A DNA stretch of 22,230 nucleotides from IMG/VR virus record IMGVR_UViG_3300029957_000045, positions 1 through 22,230 of that record; one strand, 5' to 3'. The notes beneath the pieces were generated by a model. It did no database searches. It was not told the DNA's origin and worked only from the letters and a program-made list of their open reading frames with translations. Both the position numbers and the translations under genes were made by a program. The stretch is from a virus. Positions 14,993-22,230 of the stretch are shown here, piece by piece (positions within the stretch are counted from its first letter, which is position 1; each line of letters starts with the position of its first letter).

Positions 14993-15373
14993 CTAAAACA
15001 GACTCACTTGCTTGTCATCCATCACCGTACTGCCGAGGATATTCCATATCCACCGATCGCTGAGGTGATAACGGCGTGCCAGCTCGTCTACTGGTACACC
15101 CTGGCTGTATAGCTGCACGATCTCGCGGTTACGGGCCTCACGCAGGCCGCGCGCGCATTTGGCGACGTAGAGCCAACGGCCACCGCCAGTTTGCTTGACC
15201 AGCGAGGTCAGCGCATCGATACCGATACACTGCGCCAGGGGGTGCTCTGCGTTTATGTTGCGTAAAGCCGGTAGGCGCGGGGTAGTGCCGCCGAAACGTT
15301 CCACTAACTTGAGCGCAGCAGACTCACCGATAATCTCGACGATCTCCAGCAGGTTGACAGGTGCGGTATTCAC
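14993..15373 (-). CDS. mor: Mor-family middle-operon transcription activator
   Basis: This 126-residue protein contains GGGRWLYVAK at 63-72, then RNREIVQLYSQGVPVDELAR and RYHLSDRWIWNIL (residues 81-113). These are the dimer-side strand and HTH of the Mor/C activator family. In Mu, Mor activates the middle promoter that makes C, which turns on late genes; only one such gene is seen here, so it may do both jobs. Its GTG start overlaps the upstream stop (GTGA), so it is coupled to the small membrane protein. A likely target is the region around 14452-14473 ahead of the lysis genes; that link is inferred. Confidence 0.88.
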   Translation of the reverse strand: MNTAPVNLLEIVEIIGESAALKLVERFGGTTPRLPALRNINAEHPLAQCIGIDALTSLVKQTGGGRWLYVAKCARGLREARNREIVQLYSQGVPVDELARRYHLSDRWIWNILGSTVMDDKQVSLF

Positions 15374-17384: not shown

Positions 17385-17500
17385 TGCTCTTCCCCCTCTA
17401 TCTCTTCGCAGCCGATCTCGATCAGCCCCATCGCCCAAAGGATCACAAGCAAGCACACGGCAAAGACTGTCCCCAGCCCGATAACGGTGAAGATGTTCAT
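17381..17500 (-). CDS. 39-residue single-span membrane peptide
   Basis: This tiny frame starts at the ATG at 17500 (MNIFTVIGLGTVFAVCLLVI) and ends LIEIGCEEIEGEEQ. It has one hydrophobic span (about residues 5-26) and a strongly acidic tail. Its start overlaps the Gam stop and its own stop overlaps the next start, both by ATGA, so it is very likely translated. Function is unknown; small early membrane peptides of phages often affect host membrane or proteins, but nothing specific can be read here. Confidence 0.72.
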   Translation of the reverse strand: MNIFTVIGLGTVFAVCLLVILWAMGLIEIGCEEIEGEEQ

Positions 17501-18018
17501 GCTGTGACCTCTTGCTCGAACGGCGTGATCACAAAGTCCTCGACGCCGCTGACGATGCTGATGCCTGCCACGCCTTTCACTTCCTCCGGCGCGTTGAGGA
17601 TGGCTTCTTTGTTGATCTCTTCCTTGGTGCGGACGAACTTGCCGAGGCCGAGGCGATGCAGGGTTTCGATGACGCTGTCCGCGCCGGTGATGCGCACGCT
17701 TGGCGGGCGCTGACGCCACTGGATCTCGCCGGTGATGAAGTTGGCGGTCTTCACCTTGCCGCCGTTGGTCAGGTCGTCGCGGTGGGCTTCGCAGTAAGCC
17801 TGCACGCCTTCCTGCAAGCCCTCGATCTGTTTGATGAGCGCATCCAGCGGGCCTTGGTAGGTCTGGGTGATGTGCGCGATAGAGTCGTTCATCTCGGCCT
17901 GCGTGCGTGCCAGTTGGCGTTGCAGATCGCCCAGGTGTTTGATATCGGCAGCGGCTTCGCCGTTGTTCTGCGGCACGTCGATCTGTGCCTTGGCTTTGAG
18001 TCTGGTCTTTGGTGCCAC
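17497..18018 (-). CDS. gam: Gam-family host-nuclease inhibitor
   Basis: This 173-residue protein has a long coiled-coil start (DLQRQLARTQAEMNDSIAHI), followed by GKVKTANFITGEIQWRQRPP and later LGLGKFVRTKEEINKEAIL. This is the layout of Mu Gam, a Ku-like protein that binds DNA ends and blocks host exonucleases. The GTG at 18018 is chosen because AAGGAG lies 5 nt upstream; a TTG at 18048 lies inside an upstream palindrome. It is downstream of the DGR and HTH genes in the same direction, so it would share the early transcript. Length matches Mu Gam (about 174). Confidence 0.93.
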   Translation of the reverse strand: MAPKTRLKAKAQIDVPQNNGEAAADIKHLGDLQRQLARTQAEMNDSIAHITQTYQGPLDALIKQIEGLQEGVQAYCEAHRDDLTNGGKVKTANFITGEIQWRQRPPSVRITGADSVIETLHRLGLGKFVRTKEEINKEAILNAPEEVKGVAGISIVSGVEDFVITPFEQEVTA

Positions 18019-18036
18019 GGTGTTCTCCTTGTGTAG

Positions 18037-18054
18037 GTCGGGTTTCAACCCGAC
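18037..18054. repeat. Perfect REP-like palindrome upstream of gam
   Basis: Arms GTCGGGTT and AACCCGAC are separated by 2 nt, with GTAG beside them and a GGGT flank. It lies between the HTH gene stop and gam. Such short GC palindromes occur as dispersed REP-like units in proteobacterial genomes; whether this is one needs a genome search. It could also act as a transcript hairpin before the gam ribosome site. Confidence 0.45.
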
Positions 18055-18058
18055 GGGT

Positions 18059-18376
18059 TTAAGTTGGTAGATGAAGCTGCCCGAGCAGATCTGGCAGCGG
18101 GATATTGCGCAGCTTGGCTTCGAGGCCGAGGCTGTGCAGTGCGCGGCGGCGCAGGAATGAGCAGGTATCTTTCAGCTCATCCGGCGTGGCGGCGATGTAG
18201 TAGCCATGCTTGGGCGTGCCGCAGATGGCGTGGCCTTCGTCACGCAGACCGCTGATCAGCGTGCGCACGTTGCGTTCGGTGGTGTCGGCCAGCACGGCGA
18301 GCCGCCGGACGCCGATACCGTTGCCCTTGCCGATGTGACGCGAGAGCAGGTTTAGAAGCTGGTCACTGGTTGCCAT
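18059..18376 (-). CDS. Winged-helix/HTH protein overlapping the RT gene
   Basis: This 105-residue protein starts MATSDQLLNLLSRHIGKGNG, then has a clear HTH pattern (GVRRLAVLADTTERNVRTLI) and a wing-like GYYIAATPDEL. The C-terminus contains FLRRRALHSLGLEAKLR and is helical. GGAGG lies 5 nt before the ATG at 18376. The gene overlaps the 3' end of the reverse-transcriptase gene by 14 nt, so it is co-transcribed with the DGR and gam. It may regulate the early operon or the DGR; the target is unknown. The frame is open much further upstream but that part lies over the RT gene. Confidence 0.8.
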   Translation of the reverse strand: MATSDQLLNLLSRHIGKGNGIGVRRLAVLADTTERNVRTLISGLRDEGHAICGTPKHGYYIAATPDELKDTCSFLRRRALHSLGLEAKLRNIPLPDLLGQLHLPT

Positions 18377-19766
18377 AATTGCCTCCGTGGCTGGTTGAAT
18401 TTCTGAACGTCTTGGTGAAACCCTTATCGATACAGTGCCCGCGATAGCGCAGCACGTTGGCCAGCAACGCCCGATCATGGTGGCTATGCGTTGCCTGTCG
18501 CAGGAGGCCGAAATAGCTATTGGCTGTCTCGAACAACTCGTCAGCTGGCATCTGGCGCGTGCGGCTGATCGCCTCATTGAATGCCCGGCGGCGGGTGACT
18601 CTGTGCCACGGCTTGATCACCTGGCCAACGAAGTCCACTCCACGATCAATAGGCTGCAAAATAGTCTTGGATGGATTCAGACGCAGGCCGAGGTGCTGTG
18701 GCAACCACGCATCGATGTCGGCGCGAGCAACGTTCAACCACTGCGGTGATGCGTGCAGCAGCACCATATCGTCCACATAGCGCACGTAGTGGCGGCAATG
18801 CAGATCGTGCTTGATGTGCTGATCCAGTTCGTCCAAGAGGACATTGGCGAAGAATTGGCTGCTCAGATTTCCGATGGGTAACCCAAGGTGCGTAGGCTGG
18901 CTGGTGAGCCGCTTATGCGGCGGTACGCGATCCAGTAGCGCAGGATCGCCCTGGAACTCGAAGTTCTGACGCGGATCGTGGAACAACACCAGTTCGGCCA
19001 GATCCATCCACCAGCCATCGATGCGCTTAGCCAACAGATCGTGCACCACCCGCTTGTCGATGGAGACGAAGAAGTTGGCGAGATCCAGCTTGAGGTAATG
19101 CGCTGGCTTGCTCCAGTTCTGCGTAAGGCTGCGGATCTTCGCTTCCAGCCTTTGGGCACCGTACAACGTGCCGCGTCCAGGAATGCAGGCGCAACTGTCT
19201 GCGATGAAGCCTGCGTATAAACGCGGGGCGATCCGGTTATAGAGCAGGTGGTGCACGATGCGGTCACGAAACTCTGCTGCCCATACCTCGCGCGGCTTCG
19301 GGCGAGTGATGACAAAACAGATGCTCTTGCCGGGCCTATACGAGCCGTTGCGCAGCTCTTCATCGAGCTGGCACAGGTTGCGTTCCAGATTCATCTCGAA
19401 AGCCAATGCGCTGGCGCTGTTGCGCTTTGTATCGCGGCAATTCAGATAGGCTTGTACTAGCTCTTCAAAAGAAAAATCAGCATGGTGGCACTGGGGTTGA
19501 GCTGCGGACGGCCACAGCGCGGCACTTGTTGTTGGTGTTATTCCAATTCTGGTTTCCATTGTTGAAGTTCTGATACCAGGCGGAACCTGCCGAACGCTGC
19601 GGTTAATCGTGCTATCTACGTCACCCCGCCGACTGTCGCGATCAGTCAGCGAGGAAACTGCGCCAGACCTGCCTTGGGCAACTAACCCAGCGGTATCTGC
19701 GGTGCGCATGGCGGTGGCCTGTATGGACAGCGGCACGACCAGATCAACATTTCGCACAGTCGTCAT
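18363..19766 (-). CDS. DGR reverse transcriptase; template repeat lies inside its reading frame
   Basis: From the ATG at 19766 the protein has 467 residues. The RT domain runs from about residue 98 (FSFEELVQAYLNC) and has RPKPREVWAAEFRDR at 155-169 and motif A LDLANFF at 227-233 (Asp 228). The DGR-type motif LPIGNLSSQ is at 296-304, YVDD at 330-333 and LNPSKT later, so catalytic residues are intact. DGR RTs copy a template RNA with adenine errors, with Avd, and place the cDNA in target genes. The ATG overlaps the avd stop (ATGA). There is no ATG, GTG or TTG in frame between template and RT domain. Residues about 56-89 are the template read in another frame, and residues 1-55 show no known domain. 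An ATG inside the template (19559) is a weaker alternative start. Confidence 0.93.
   Translation of the reverse strand: MTTVRNVDLVVPLSIQATAMRTADTAGLVAQGRSGAVSSLTDRDSRRGDVDSTINRSVRQVPPGIRTSTMETRIGITPTTSAALWPSAAQPQCHHADFSFEELVQAYLNCRDTKRNSASALAFEMNLERNLCQLDEELRNGSYRPGKSICFVITRPKPREVWAAEFRDRIVHHLLYNRIAPRLYAGFIADSCACIPGRGTLYGAQRLEAKIRSLTQNWSKPAHYLKLDLANFFVSIDKRVVHDLLAKRIDGWWMDLAELVLFHDPRQNFEFQGDPALLDRVPPHKRLTSQPTHLGLPIGNLSSQFFANVLLDELDQHIKHDLHCRHYVRYVDDMVLLHASPQWLNVARADIDAWLPQHLGLRLNPSKTILQPIDRGVDFVGQVIKPWHRVTRRRAFNEAISRTRQMPADELFETANSYFGLLRQATHSHHDRALLANVLRYRGHCIDKGFTKTFRNSTSHGGNYGNQ
19502..19599 (-). repeat. DGR template repeat (TR), 98 nt
   Basis: This block matches VR1 and VR2 over 98 nt. 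The outer 24 and 27 nt are identical in all three. The inner 47 nt hold 23 adenines (coding strand), and all differences to the VRs (13 and 11) fall on these. In the target frame the core reads YQNFNNGNQNWNNTNN, rich in AAC/AAT codons as in known DGR templates. A TAA just 5' in the target frame shows it is not itself a target gene. It lies inside the RT reading frame (different frame). Confidence 0.97.
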
Positions 19767-20131
19767 GGCCTTGACCCTGACGAAGCGGGCGACATTGCGT
19801 ATTTGCGCCATCCACCAGCCTGCTTGCCGACCTTGTCGGTCAACGCGATGGCCTTGGCATATTGGCCGGTCGAGATGAGCAGCTTGTCGCGCGATAGGCG
19901 CAACAGCAGCTCGGCAACCTGCAACCGCTCGATCAATGCGTCGAGATGCGGCGTCTTCTCTCTCGCACAGTTGGCGCGGAAGATCAGCGTCACGATCTCT
20001 ACGCACTCATCCCGCAATTTGCTACCGATGCTTTGCTTGAAATCTCGCCGCATGTTCGTAGACAAATCCGTGATGGCGTCGAGCAGGTCGTAGGCCACTT
20101 TGTAGATGGGCAGTTCTGAGGTGATTGCCAT
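19763..20131 (-). CDS. avd: Avd-type accessory variability protein
   Basis: This 122-residue all-helical protein starts MAITSELPIYKVAYDLLDAI, then has NMRRDFKQSIGSKLRDECVE and LDALIERLQVAELLLRLSRD. This fits the four-helix-bundle Avd family, whose barrel-shaped pentamer binds the DGR template RNA and the RT. Length is close to the roughly 128 residues of the Bordetella phage protein. It lies between VP1 and the RT and overlaps the RT start by 4 nt (ATGA). The ATG at 20131 is preferred over a TTG at 20152; the ribosome site is weak (GAG well upstream), suggesting low expression or coupling to VP1. Confidence 0.92.
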   Translation of the reverse strand: MAITSELPIYKVAYDLLDAITDLSTNMRRDFKQSIGSKLRDECVEIVTLIFRANCAREKTPHLDALIERLQVAELLLRLSRDKLLISTGQYAKAIALTDKVGKQAGGWRKYAMSPASSGSRP

Positions 20132-20155
20132 GCTGAATAAATCAATTCTCAATAG

Positions 20156-20524
20156 TTAAAGGGGTACGCTGCGGACGGCCACAGCGCGGCACTTGCCGTT
20201 GGTGGTATCCCAACCCTGGTACCCAAAGCTGAAGTGCTGACACCAGGCGGAACCTGCCGAACGCTGTTCGCCAGACCAGTACCAGTCCGGCGTGAATGTC
20301 TCTCCCAGATTGGCAAACAGCAGGGATTGCTCGCGGCGCGTGGGCAACCTGCCGCCCGCGTCCTCGGCAAACTTGACGGCCTCGTCCCAGCTCACGGCTT
20401 GTGCCTCACCAGGCAGCCGGATGATGTGCTGATCAGGCTCGCCGTTCTTGCCGAGCAGCAGCCCGGCGTACTGTTCGCCTGCCTTGAGCAGGGATTCCAG
20501 AAATGCTTTCTTTGCGTTGTTCAT
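20156..20524 (-). CDS. DGR target protein VP1 (C-type-lectin-like, DUF1566-like)
   Basis: This 122-residue protein contains WDEAVKFAEDAGGRLPTRRE (46-65) and DWYWSGEQ, then the variable block SAWCQHFSFGYQGWDTTNGK and the closing strand CRAVAVRSVPL. These are typical of DUF1566-like/C-type-lectin-like folds used by DGR targets, where the variable residues form the ligand face. Nine codons differ from the template: residues 95, 97, 99, 100, 102, 104, 106, 107 and 110. GGAGG lies 5 nt before the ATG. No signal peptide or membrane span is seen, so it is probably cytosolic or virion-carried. The ligand is unknown. VP2 lies 9 nt upstream and shares the KAGE-x-Y and DWYWS-x-EQRSAGSAW segments. Confidence 0.93.
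   Translation of the reverse strand: MNNAKKAFLESLLKAGEQYAGLLLGKNGEPDQHIIRLPGEAQAVSWDEAVKFAEDAGGRLPTRREQSLLFANLGETFTPDWYWSGEQRSAGSAWCQHFSFGYQGWDTTNGKCRAVAVRSVPL
20169..20266 (-). repeat. DGR variable repeat VR1 (in VP1)
   Basis: 98 nt aligned to the template without gaps; 13 differences, all at template adenines (coding strand). The 27-nt 3' end is identical to the template and GC-rich, as expected of the initiation-of-homing side. After it VP1 has CCCTTTAAC and later TTCAGCAT, shared with VR2 but not with the template. Confidence 0.96.
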
Positions 20525-20533
20525 TGCGACCTC

Positions 20534-20926
20534 CTAATTGATGAATGCTGAAGTGTTAAAGGGAACTCTGCGGACGGCCACAGCGCGGCACTTGAAGTTG
20601 GTGGTATACCAATCCTGGCTCCCATCGCTGAAGCTCTGAAACCAGGCGGAACCTGCCGAACGCTGTTCGCTTGACCAGTACCAGTCCTTCTTAAAACGAT
20701 CAGGCAGGTGCTTGTGGAACATGGATTGCTCAACGCGATCCGGCAGATCACCGCCGATGGATTTGGCCCAATCCATCTGGGTCTGCCAGTCGGCATCGTC
20801 GTTGTCTCCGTCGAGGATGATGGTGTGGTGACCGGTGCCGTCCGGACGGATGAATGCTCCGCCGTAGATCTCGCCTGCCTTGAGTTCGGGAATGGTGAAT
20901 TTGCTTGGTTTGGTTGCTTGGTTCAT
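20534..20926 (-). CDS. DGR target protein VP2 (C-type-lectin-like, DUF1566-like)
   Basis: This 130-residue protein starts MNQATKPSKFTIPELKAGEI, then has WQTQMDWAKSIGGDLPDRVE, DWYWSSEQ and the variable block SAWFQSFSDGSQDWYTTNFK, and ends CRAVAVRRVPF plus eight extra residues (NTSAFIN after F). The fold and role are as for VP1. Nine variable codons are at residues 96, 98, 100, 101, 103, 105, 107, 108 and 111. AGGAG lies about 6 nt before the ATG. It leads the DGR block and follows the zinc-motif early gene by 9 nt, so it is driven by the early transcript. The N-terminal two thirds differ from VP1, so the two probably have different fixed parts and share only the diversified face. Confidence 0.93.
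   Translation of the reverse strand: MNQATKPSKFTIPELKAGEIYGGAFIRPDGTGHHTIILDGDNDDADWQTQMDWAKSIGGDLPDRVEQSMFHKHLPDRFKKDWYWSSEQRSAGSAWFQSFSDGSQDWYTTNFKCRAVAVRRVPFNTSAFIN
20568..20665 (-). repeat. DGR variable repeat VR2 (in VP2)
   Basis: 98 nt aligned to the template without gaps; 11 differences, all at template adenines. It differs from VR1 at many of the same positions with different bases, so the two were mutated at least partly independently. The 3' flank CCCTTTAAC...TTCAGCAT is shared with VR1. Confidence 0.96.
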
Positions 20927-20935
20927 CTAAGTCTC

Positions 20936-21481
20936 CTATGGTTGATTGCTATTGCTGCGTAGTACTTCTTTGACGGATGCAGGCATCTCGCTGCGCGGTT
21001 TTTCTTTTGTCGGTCCAAGCACCTGGTCGACAGATTTCAGTACTGCGCTGCCGACCTGCGTATGCCCACCGCGCTTTGCCTCAGTGCTGGCTTCCTGTTT
21101 GGATTCGGCCTTGCTGCTGTAGCCTTCGATGATCGCCAGCAGGTAGCCGTGGCTCTTGAGCGGCAGGGTGAGTGCGTCGCGCTTGGCCAGCATCTCGTTC
21201 AGCGCGGCCACCCAGTAATCTTGCGGGGCAGACCAGATGCGGCCGTTGCGCTCGATCTTGGCCTCGGCGATCAACGGCAGCAGTTCATTCAGCAGGTTCG
21301 CCACGCGGTCGAATGAGAGCTGGCGCTGCGCCGGGCGGAAGAGGGCGAGGTACTGCACCAGCAGCTTGCCAAGAGGCGCAGGGATCGCCAGGGCGGCCAT
21401 GACTGCCTCGCGCGCGCCTTCGTTGCCGATCAGCACGTCGATGGAGAAGGCAGCGCCGCAGGCTGGGCAGGAGGTTTTCAT
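20936..21481 (-). CDS. Early protein with N-terminal zinc-type CxxC motif
   Basis: This 181-residue protein starts MKTSCPACGAAFSIDVLIGN, then has LLVQYLALFRPAQRQLSFDR and LLNELLPLIAEAKIERNGRI, followed by a helical region and a charged tail. It resembles a phage early-region family often seen near replication or transposition genes. The single Cys pair suggests metal binding or dimerisation. The role is not known to me. The ATG at 21481 overlaps the upstream stop (ATGA); a long in-frame extension upstream is a shadow. It lies 9 nt before VP2, placing the DGR directly downstream of it. Confidence 0.75.
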   Translation of the reverse strand: MKTSCPACGAAFSIDVLIGNEGAREAVMAALAIPAPLGKLLVQYLALFRPAQRQLSFDRVANLLNELLPLIAEAKIERNGRIWSAPQDYWVAALNEMLAKRDALTLPLKSHGYLLAIIEGYSSKAESKQEASTEAKRGGHTQVGSAVLKSVDQVLGPTKEKPRSEMPASVKEVLRSNSNQP

Positions 21482-22121: not shown

Positions 22122-22230
22122 GCTTCACCTCGCGCGCCTGTCAAGCGGAGCAAGGCCACTATGAATGGGTTGGCCGGTTGGTGGTGTTCGCTTGGCTCTA
22201 CTTCCCAGCAGACCAGGCAATCCAAGCGCG
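22118..22230 (-). CDS. C-terminus of an early gene cut by the window edge
   Basis: A minus-strand frame enters from the right edge and ends at a TGA (22118-22120) that overlaps the next ATG (ATGA). The visible 36 or so residues include a CLVCWEVEP segment with a Cys pair and end LLRLTGARGEA. The coupling argues that it is real, but too little is visible to name it. Confidence 0.5.
   Translation of the reverse strand, partial: RLDCLVCWEVEPSEHHQPANPFIVALLRLTGARGEA

Follow-up and report, generated by a model that had tools for sequence, protein, structure and literature searches.

A diversity-generating retroelement with an RT-15 RNA beside its template repeat in the putative early operon of a Mu-like phage

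Genes and repeats of the retroelement

We analysed a stretch of viral DNA of 22,230 bases (IMG/VR record IMGVR_UViG_3300029957_000045, hereafter the window), which carries on its minus strand a complete and intact diversity-generating retroelement (DGR) of the Avd type, made up of a reverse transcriptase (RT), the accessory variability determinant Avd, one template repeat (TR) and two variable repeats (VRs). The repeats are three minus-strand copies of a 98-nt unit, with the TR at 19502-19599, VR1 at 20169-20266 and VR2 at 20568-20665. All three were recovered independently by a repeat search of the window and aligned without gaps when re-aligned, as an earlier note on this DNA had described. 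The 13 mismatches between TR and VR1 and the 11 between TR and VR2 all fall on TR adenines (24 of 24, none elsewhere), in agreement with the counts in that note; if mismatches were placed at random, the chance of all differences hitting an A would be 7e-9 for VR1 and 2e-7 for VR2. The TR contains 28 adenines, 23 of them in the core between the outermost changed sites; 15 of the 28 are changed in at least one VR, core and changed sites again numbering what had been noted, and nine are changed in both. Codon positions 1 or 2 hold 26 of the 28 adenines, and in the Asn-rich peptide encoded by the TR 9 of 32 residues are altered in the VRs.

The VRs belong to two adjacent target genes on the same strand. 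Target gene 2 (20534-20926) encodes a stand-alone C-type-lectin-fold protein of 130 aa, and target gene 1 (20156-20524) a paralogue of 122 aa, which is about 50% identical to it in a protein alignment and matches phrog_4245 (4e-8). The Lcl_C family (PF07603) gave only weak scores on the targets (23.9 and 17.6 bits against a curated cut-off of 34.9). An AlphaFold2 model was made for target 2, using an alignment of 60 window and locus sequences; it reached a predicted local distance difference test (pLDDT) score of 91.1 and adopts a C-type-lectin fold, with the C-terminal domain of Bd2740 as top fold match (Z 13.3, root-mean-square deviation 2.2 over 101 residues) and the C-terminal domain of Lcl also similar (Z 12.9, root-mean-square deviation 4.5 over 112 residues). 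According to this model, the VR of target 2 is located at the C-terminus of a lectin-fold protein. No hydrophobic segment was found in the window targets. At the DNA level the two genes are 88% identical over the VR region and share only short stretches elsewhere, as is expected if one template overwrites two diverged paralogues.

The avd gene is located at 19763-20131 on the minus strand, its start being set at an ATG inside the longest open reading frame (ORF). The Avd-like nature already ascribed to it is confirmed by matches to PF22296 (bAvd, 1e-12; 48.9 bits, cut-off 40) and phrog_3206 (6e-32), while a search of PDB gave no sequence match for Avd. The RT gene (18363-19559, minus strand, start codon uncertain) matches RVT_1 (1.2e-13) and phrog_1423 (3e-116), and its best PDB match is 8ub7 (3.6e-38; runner-up 1.5e-7). 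This entry is the DGR RT of phage BPP-1, as shown by the full-length match of the BPP-1 protein (328 of 328 residues, 4.5e-230). Together with the RT and Avd matches, the adenine-restricted differences support the claim of the earlier note that mutagenic retrohoming has acted here. We also considered a DRT or another defence RT. The RT does score with PADLOC RT models (best 1.8e-33), but the seven other proteins scanned gave no match, and the TR/VR pattern decides for a DGR.

RT-15 RNA and spacing between template and RT

Relatives were collected by a search with the RT, which yielded 171 in IMG/VR (the best 80 of the 171 were kept) and 48 loci in GTDB genomes; individual loci are cited below by L numbers. 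The interval between avd and the TR is occupied by the Rfam RNA RT-15 (RF03018) at 19600-19794 on the minus strand, a full-length match (model positions 1-192 of 192, 160.6 bits, gathering threshold 82, E 4.8e-39) and the only Rfam match over gathering in the whole window. At one end the element covers the final 32 nt of avd, and at the other its final base adjoins the first base of the TR. All 47 of 47 lineage records contain a single copy, tied to the DGR template repeat, and none of seven phages with distant DGRs has it. It was also found in 14 of 14 tested genome loci, among them L145 and L149, which are the same sequence over their shared 4462 bases and whose RT is 47-53% identical to the window RT. 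Among 52 copies, 43 base pairs were scored, 26 of them changed on both sides; 96.8% of cells were paired, a score that is flattered by deriving the structure from the same alignment, although Rfam's independent model agrees with it. Slid alignments gave 27-43% pairing (maximum 42.8%), and none of 500 shuffles scored as high.

The position of RT-15 bears on what it may do. It could be a mere regulatory leader for expression of RT or avd and lie outside the template RNA, in keeping with its overlap with the avd 3' end and its position before the RT. We consider this rather unlikely. The 3' edge of RT-15 is at most 6 nt away from the TR edge in the window as well as in 15 listed loci of the lineage, and in L007 (5461-6000) and L033 (5002-6000), where ORFs judged by eye to be methyltransferase-like part the TR from the RT, RT-15 remains at the TR, so the element travels with the template. 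Nor does the RT coding region past the TR show extra synonymous constraint, save for a slight increase over the first 15 codons. In the same two loci, in which template RNA and RT gene are naturally separated, an ATG precedes the first RT motif by a few codons.

The distance between TR and RT is short. The first conserved RT motif begins 50 nt past the TR in the window, compared with 28-87 nt in 46 genome loci and 65-344 nt in the outgroups, of which Bacteroides F2 has a short spacing as well. The listed RT ORF (18363-20006) takes in the TR and about two thirds of avd, and the only in-frame ATG, GTG or TTG codons before the motif are the ATG at 19559, inside the TR, or lie upstream. No ATG, GTG or TTG is present between TR and RT motif in 38 of 76 distinct loci, window included (L030, in which the motif pattern failed, was left out of this count), so in these the RT must start in or before the TR unless a rarer start codon is used. 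In 73 of 76 loci the RT frame has no stop across the TR; however, the three TR frames are open in 69, 62 and 59 of 76 anyway, hence openness proves nothing about the TR as RT coding sequence, and our evidence is limited to the short spacing and the absence of start codons. A 3' spacer hidden within the RT coding sequence found no clear support either, with four-fold-site identity of 0.58 in the first 15 codons and 0.42-0.50 thereafter (0.34-0.56 elsewhere).

In BPP-1 the spacer between TR and RT is reported to recruit RT-Avd and to prime complementary DNA (cDNA) synthesis (PMC12875486). There, the Rfam family RF03022 ('Phage_DGR') is located 3' of the TR, between TR and brt, an interval of 144 nt by record annotation. 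A structured non-coding spacer of this type was not found between TR and RT of the window, where 50 nt leave hardly any room. As read from sequence, the lineage layout is inverted relative to BPP-1, with a structured RNA 5' of the TR and no long spacer 3' of it. In phage BalMu-1 (L096, 3795-3938) the Rfam RNA RT-14 lies just 3' of the DGR template, again unlike the 5' position of RT-15; the five other distant DGR phages gave no Rfam match in the stretches searched. RT-14, RT-15 and Phage_DGR may all be template-RNA elements of DGRs, placed on different sides of the TR.

Short or overlapping layouts also occur outside the lineage: in Bacteroides F2 the TR is 38 nt from the annotated RT start, and the annotated RTs of VP58.5 and ACA1 overlap the TR. 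Layouts in which TR and RT overlap already form a recognised class, architecture group 3 of DiGReF (PMC3521204). The part of that account available to us describes neither an RNA element nor placement in a phage genome, whereas the lineage of the window has RT-15 and a putative placement in the early region, as set out below.

Genomic placement and relatives

Gam, HU, GemA, Mor, Portal_Mu, Mu F and capsid E proteins were found in the window; Gam, GemA, Mor, Portal_Mu and Mu F score over their cut-offs, so both Mu-type head and early genes are present. The window ends before the region of the MuA transposase; its one near-identical contig (L002) runs further upstream and carries an AAA/TniB, MuB-like gene. 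The combined order is the MuB-like gene, then phrog_2161, target 2, target 1, avd, RT-15, TR, RT, phrog_2113 and gam, followed by HU, GemA and Mor and finally the head genes. The upstream gene phrog_2161 (function unknown) lies at 20936-21481, 9 nt before target 2, and the downstream gene phrog_2113 (function unknown, with sub-threshold helix-turn-helix matches only) at 18059-18376, overlapping the RT end by 14 nt. The Mu Gam-like end protection gene (17497-18048, PF07352, 1.5e-39) and the Mor transcription activator gene (14993-15373, PF08765, 4e-11), which we took as the end of the early region, follow; all four genes are on the minus strand. From phrog_2161 to gam the intergenic gaps measure -14 to +24 nt, with the exception of the 163 nt between avd and TR that are filled by RT-15. 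In the relatives L003, L009 and L083 the DGR is likewise bordered by genes of the phrog_2113 and phrog_2161 families. Gam is an early gene in Mu, and the Mu early operon has the same layout as found here and is expected to be repressed in the lysogen. Judged by gene order and strand, the cassette should be part of the early operon, upstream of gam and mor.

The GTDB loci come mostly from Gallionellaceae, Burkholderiales and Pseudomonas. After L002, the RT nearest to that of the window is found in L083 (86%; IMGVR_UViG_646564569_000001, 39 kb), and this record together with matches in Sideroxydans/Gallionellaceae genomes hints at an iron-oxidising betaproteobacterial host. In a quick RT tree, 79 lineage rows fall on one side of a branch with support 58, the outgroup branches being long, which suggests that the RT lineage is monophyletic. 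Gene neighbourhoods were scanned for 111 of 223 downstream and 113 of 207 upstream ORFs, all on the plus strand and mostly the longer ones. Among the top 25 families, integrase phrog_1 (20 members) and DNA methyltransferase phrog_116 (12) lead downstream, and phrog_210 (unknown, 9), repressor phrog_4 (7) and RecE-type exonucleases upstream. Placement was mapped in the window and in 47 whole records. In 38 of the 47 a PF00589 integrase is present, and in 34 it follows on the downstream side of the RT (median distance 4.1 kb); three integrases are more than 40 kb off on the linear record.

Phage DGRs are usually explained as a means of tropism switching by tail fibres, and the two lectins could likewise be minor virion receptor-binding proteins whose genes happen to lie in the early operon and which are added to the tail afterwards. 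The modelled fold is a C-type lectin as used for receptor binding, and its top match, Bdellovibrio Bd2740, is presumably one of that organism's chimeric fibre proteins. In DGR clades 1, 4 and 6, moreover, most targets in viruses carry a tail-protein annotation (PMC8144416). Yet the neighbouring genes are mainly those of integrases, methyltransferases, repressors and recombination, and tail or terminase markers, found in 17 of the 47 records, are 12-31 kb from the RT and mostly on the other strand. In detail, the tail-tip family PF13550 matched 13 records, nine over the cut-off; the 12 used, three of them below the cut-off, are 14-31 kb from the RT and in 10 cases on the opposite strand, G011 being left out since its sub-threshold match covers a target gene. 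Terminase PF03237 was found in five of 47 records, 12-30 kb off and on the opposite strand in all five. The targets are also small and have no fibre shaft. Stop-to-stop frames, to which the 225-aa limit on our choice of target starts does not apply, measure at most 288 aa in 164 of 167 targets, uncapped, and usually there are two targets per locus; such short frames mean small proteins and not long fibres. By contrast, the DGRs of the seven distant phages are located next to tail, baseplate, capsid or lysis genes wherever these are annotated (BalMu-1, Lagaffe, Bacteroides F2, ACA1, Bise and BPP-1; the record of the seventh, VP58.5, has no product names). We therefore regard tropism switching as an unlikely explanation.

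Alternatively, the lectins might serve lysogeny, being made in the lysogen to exclude other phages or to modify the host. In phages Magia, Haboob and phPA-G the cassette is located downstream of a repressor gene on the same strand, which makes co-transcription possible, much as lambda rex is transcribed with the repressor; repressor families are among the upstream neighbours as listed, and one study reportedly linked bacterial DGRs to putative conflict systems. The cassette of the window, however, lies between a MuB-like gene and gam, in an operon that Mu biology would have repressed in the lysogen, and a lysogeny function appears improbable to us.

Activity of the lineage

TR/VR pairs were detected by a repeat scan in 84 of the 94 loci, a set that includes duplicates and overlapping loci. 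The 173 pairs have 2145 mismatches at A and 31 at other bases; since the design of the scan favours mismatches at A, the 24 of 24 of the window is the unbiased count. Within the GTDB set, pairs were present in 46 of 48 loci (1076 A mismatches, 16 elsewhere). None of the 168 readable VRs among 173 target copies contains a stop codon. On the minus strand of L017 (11812-12479) we noticed a second TR/VR-like pair with 14 A mismatches and no others, possibly a second DGR on the same contig.

Contig pairs of more than 88% identity allow a view on activity. L037 and L038 differ at 14 positions over 3219 bp, all of them template-A sites of the VRs (14 of 95; other VR sites 0 of 232, TR 0 of 111, elsewhere 0 of 2781). 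Between L041 and L077, 27 of 65 VR template-A sites differ, as opposed to 2 of 153 other VR sites and 4 of 2408 sites elsewhere. The Pseudomonas phages Haboob and phPA-G (L091 and L092) differ at 25 of 66 template-A sites of the VRs, at 0 of 137 other VR sites and at 60 of 2653 sites elsewhere. Since two near-identical pairs differ almost only at template-A sites, the comparison indicates that the DGR lineage is active. The statement of the earlier note that the system was functional recently holds for relatives such as L037/L038; for the window itself, whose repeats are unchanged in L002, recent function is inferred. A relic, with duplicated lectin genes that diverged in the ordinary way, would accord with the identical VRs in L002, but with all 24 changes at A, a target pair resembling each other at 88% over the VR region and only in short stretches elsewhere, an open RT frame and active relatives, it is hardly credible.

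Proposed role and comparison with known systems

We think it likely that the window derives from a temperate, Mu-like phage whose early operon holds an intact Avd-type DGR, and that this DGR diversifies two small stand-alone lectins by means of an RT-15-TR template RNA. RT-15 and TR may form one RNA: a single transcript would comprise RT-15 followed directly by the TR and be bound by RT and Avd. The TR would be copied with errors at template adenines, and the cDNA would overwrite VR1 and VR2, giving the two lectin-fold proteins new binding faces. RT-15 would be a handle on the 5' side of the template RNA that recruits RT-Avd and perhaps positions the primer at the 3' end of the TR, as the 3' spacer does in BPP-1. 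The lectins themselves are probably early, non-virion binders, to go by gene order and strand; they would be made early inside the cell and outside the virion, where new variants could be tried against variable host factors. Their ligands would be such factors, most likely defence or host-takeover targets. Counter-defence is the role we favour, because of the expected timing, the window targets having no secretion or fibre part, and the methyltransferase neighbours in relatives, with a virion or lysogen role possible too.

Several observations weigh against this explanation. The late genes of the window share the strand of the cassette, so read-through is possible, and the lectins are called early and non-virion from gene order and strand. 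Most of the 47 records yielded no tail or terminase marker and are uninformative either way; 4 of 113 upstream neighbours match phrog_19855 ('virion structural protein'), and a segment of sufficient hydrophobicity for a membrane helix is present in 11 of 168 targets. As for the RNA, RNAalifold on 33 sequences paired the invariant AUCUGGU of RT-15 with ACCAGA in the TR body, yet Haboob and phPA-G lack ACCAGA and keep AUCUGGU. A 5-bp match of AUCUGGU with CAGAU at the TR 3' end is present in 28 of 33 and hardly varies, and the window has CAGCU instead. Finally, L013-L016, L043/L045 and L078/L079 are identical across the compared cassette, without VR change, and the 2 differences between the window and L002 over 5776 positions (at 22224 and 19218) both lie outside TR and VRs.

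The DGR of BPP-1 (brt/avd/TR/mtd) differs from that of the window not only in its RNA: its target is annotated as a tail protein and bbp7 abuts the TR, compared with two small targets in the putative early operon here. The BPP-1 'variable region 2' (L102, 33229-33558, bbp36, near cI) was considered as an early-region DGR target and rejected, because it consists of tandemly repeated sequence that BLAST does not match to the TR. Among the closest known systems are the DGRs of Burkholderia phage Magia and Shewanella phage vB_Sb_QDWS, which share the RT lineage (67%), related lectin targets, a location by repressor, recT and integrase genes, and RT-15. Their genomes have an integrase, whereas the genome of the window is Mu-like; the Magia record already carries the note 'possible DGR target'. 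A non-structural phage DGR target was proposed earlier for Quimbyvirus (PMC8008677), where one target is likewise away from structural genes and near methyltransferases. The first Quimbyvirus target, however, is a neighbour of tail fibre genes, and the Quimbyvirus RT is broken up into three frames (PMC8008677), while the mapped targets of the window lineage are beside the RT, no systematic search for tail-region targets having been made. In gut prophages, second VRs near counter-defence genes have been reported (PMC12629997). The literature we searched gave no account of an early-operon DGR lineage or of a tie between RT-15 and DGRs, and the tie may already be in print.

In retrons, the msr RNA lies 5' of its template. 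It is possible, though doubtful, that the whole lineage of temperate proteobacterial phage DGRs is a mirror image of BPP-1 in a retron-like manner, with RT-15 on the 5' side replacing the 3' spacer as RT-Avd site and primer platform, and with early intracellular, self-diversifying lectins directed against host defence proteins.

A compact template RNA without spacer would be of interest for directed-evolution tools, and the layout makes testable how cDNA is primed without a 3' spacer of the BPP-1 type and with the conserved structure on the other side of the template. The RT lineage, with its 171 IMG/VR stretches and 48 bacterial genome loci, appears to have its targets in an early, immunity-proximal region, as mapped in the window and 47 records. 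If the lectins act inside the cell, phages would own a targeted hypermutation system against something besides receptors, perhaps host defence.

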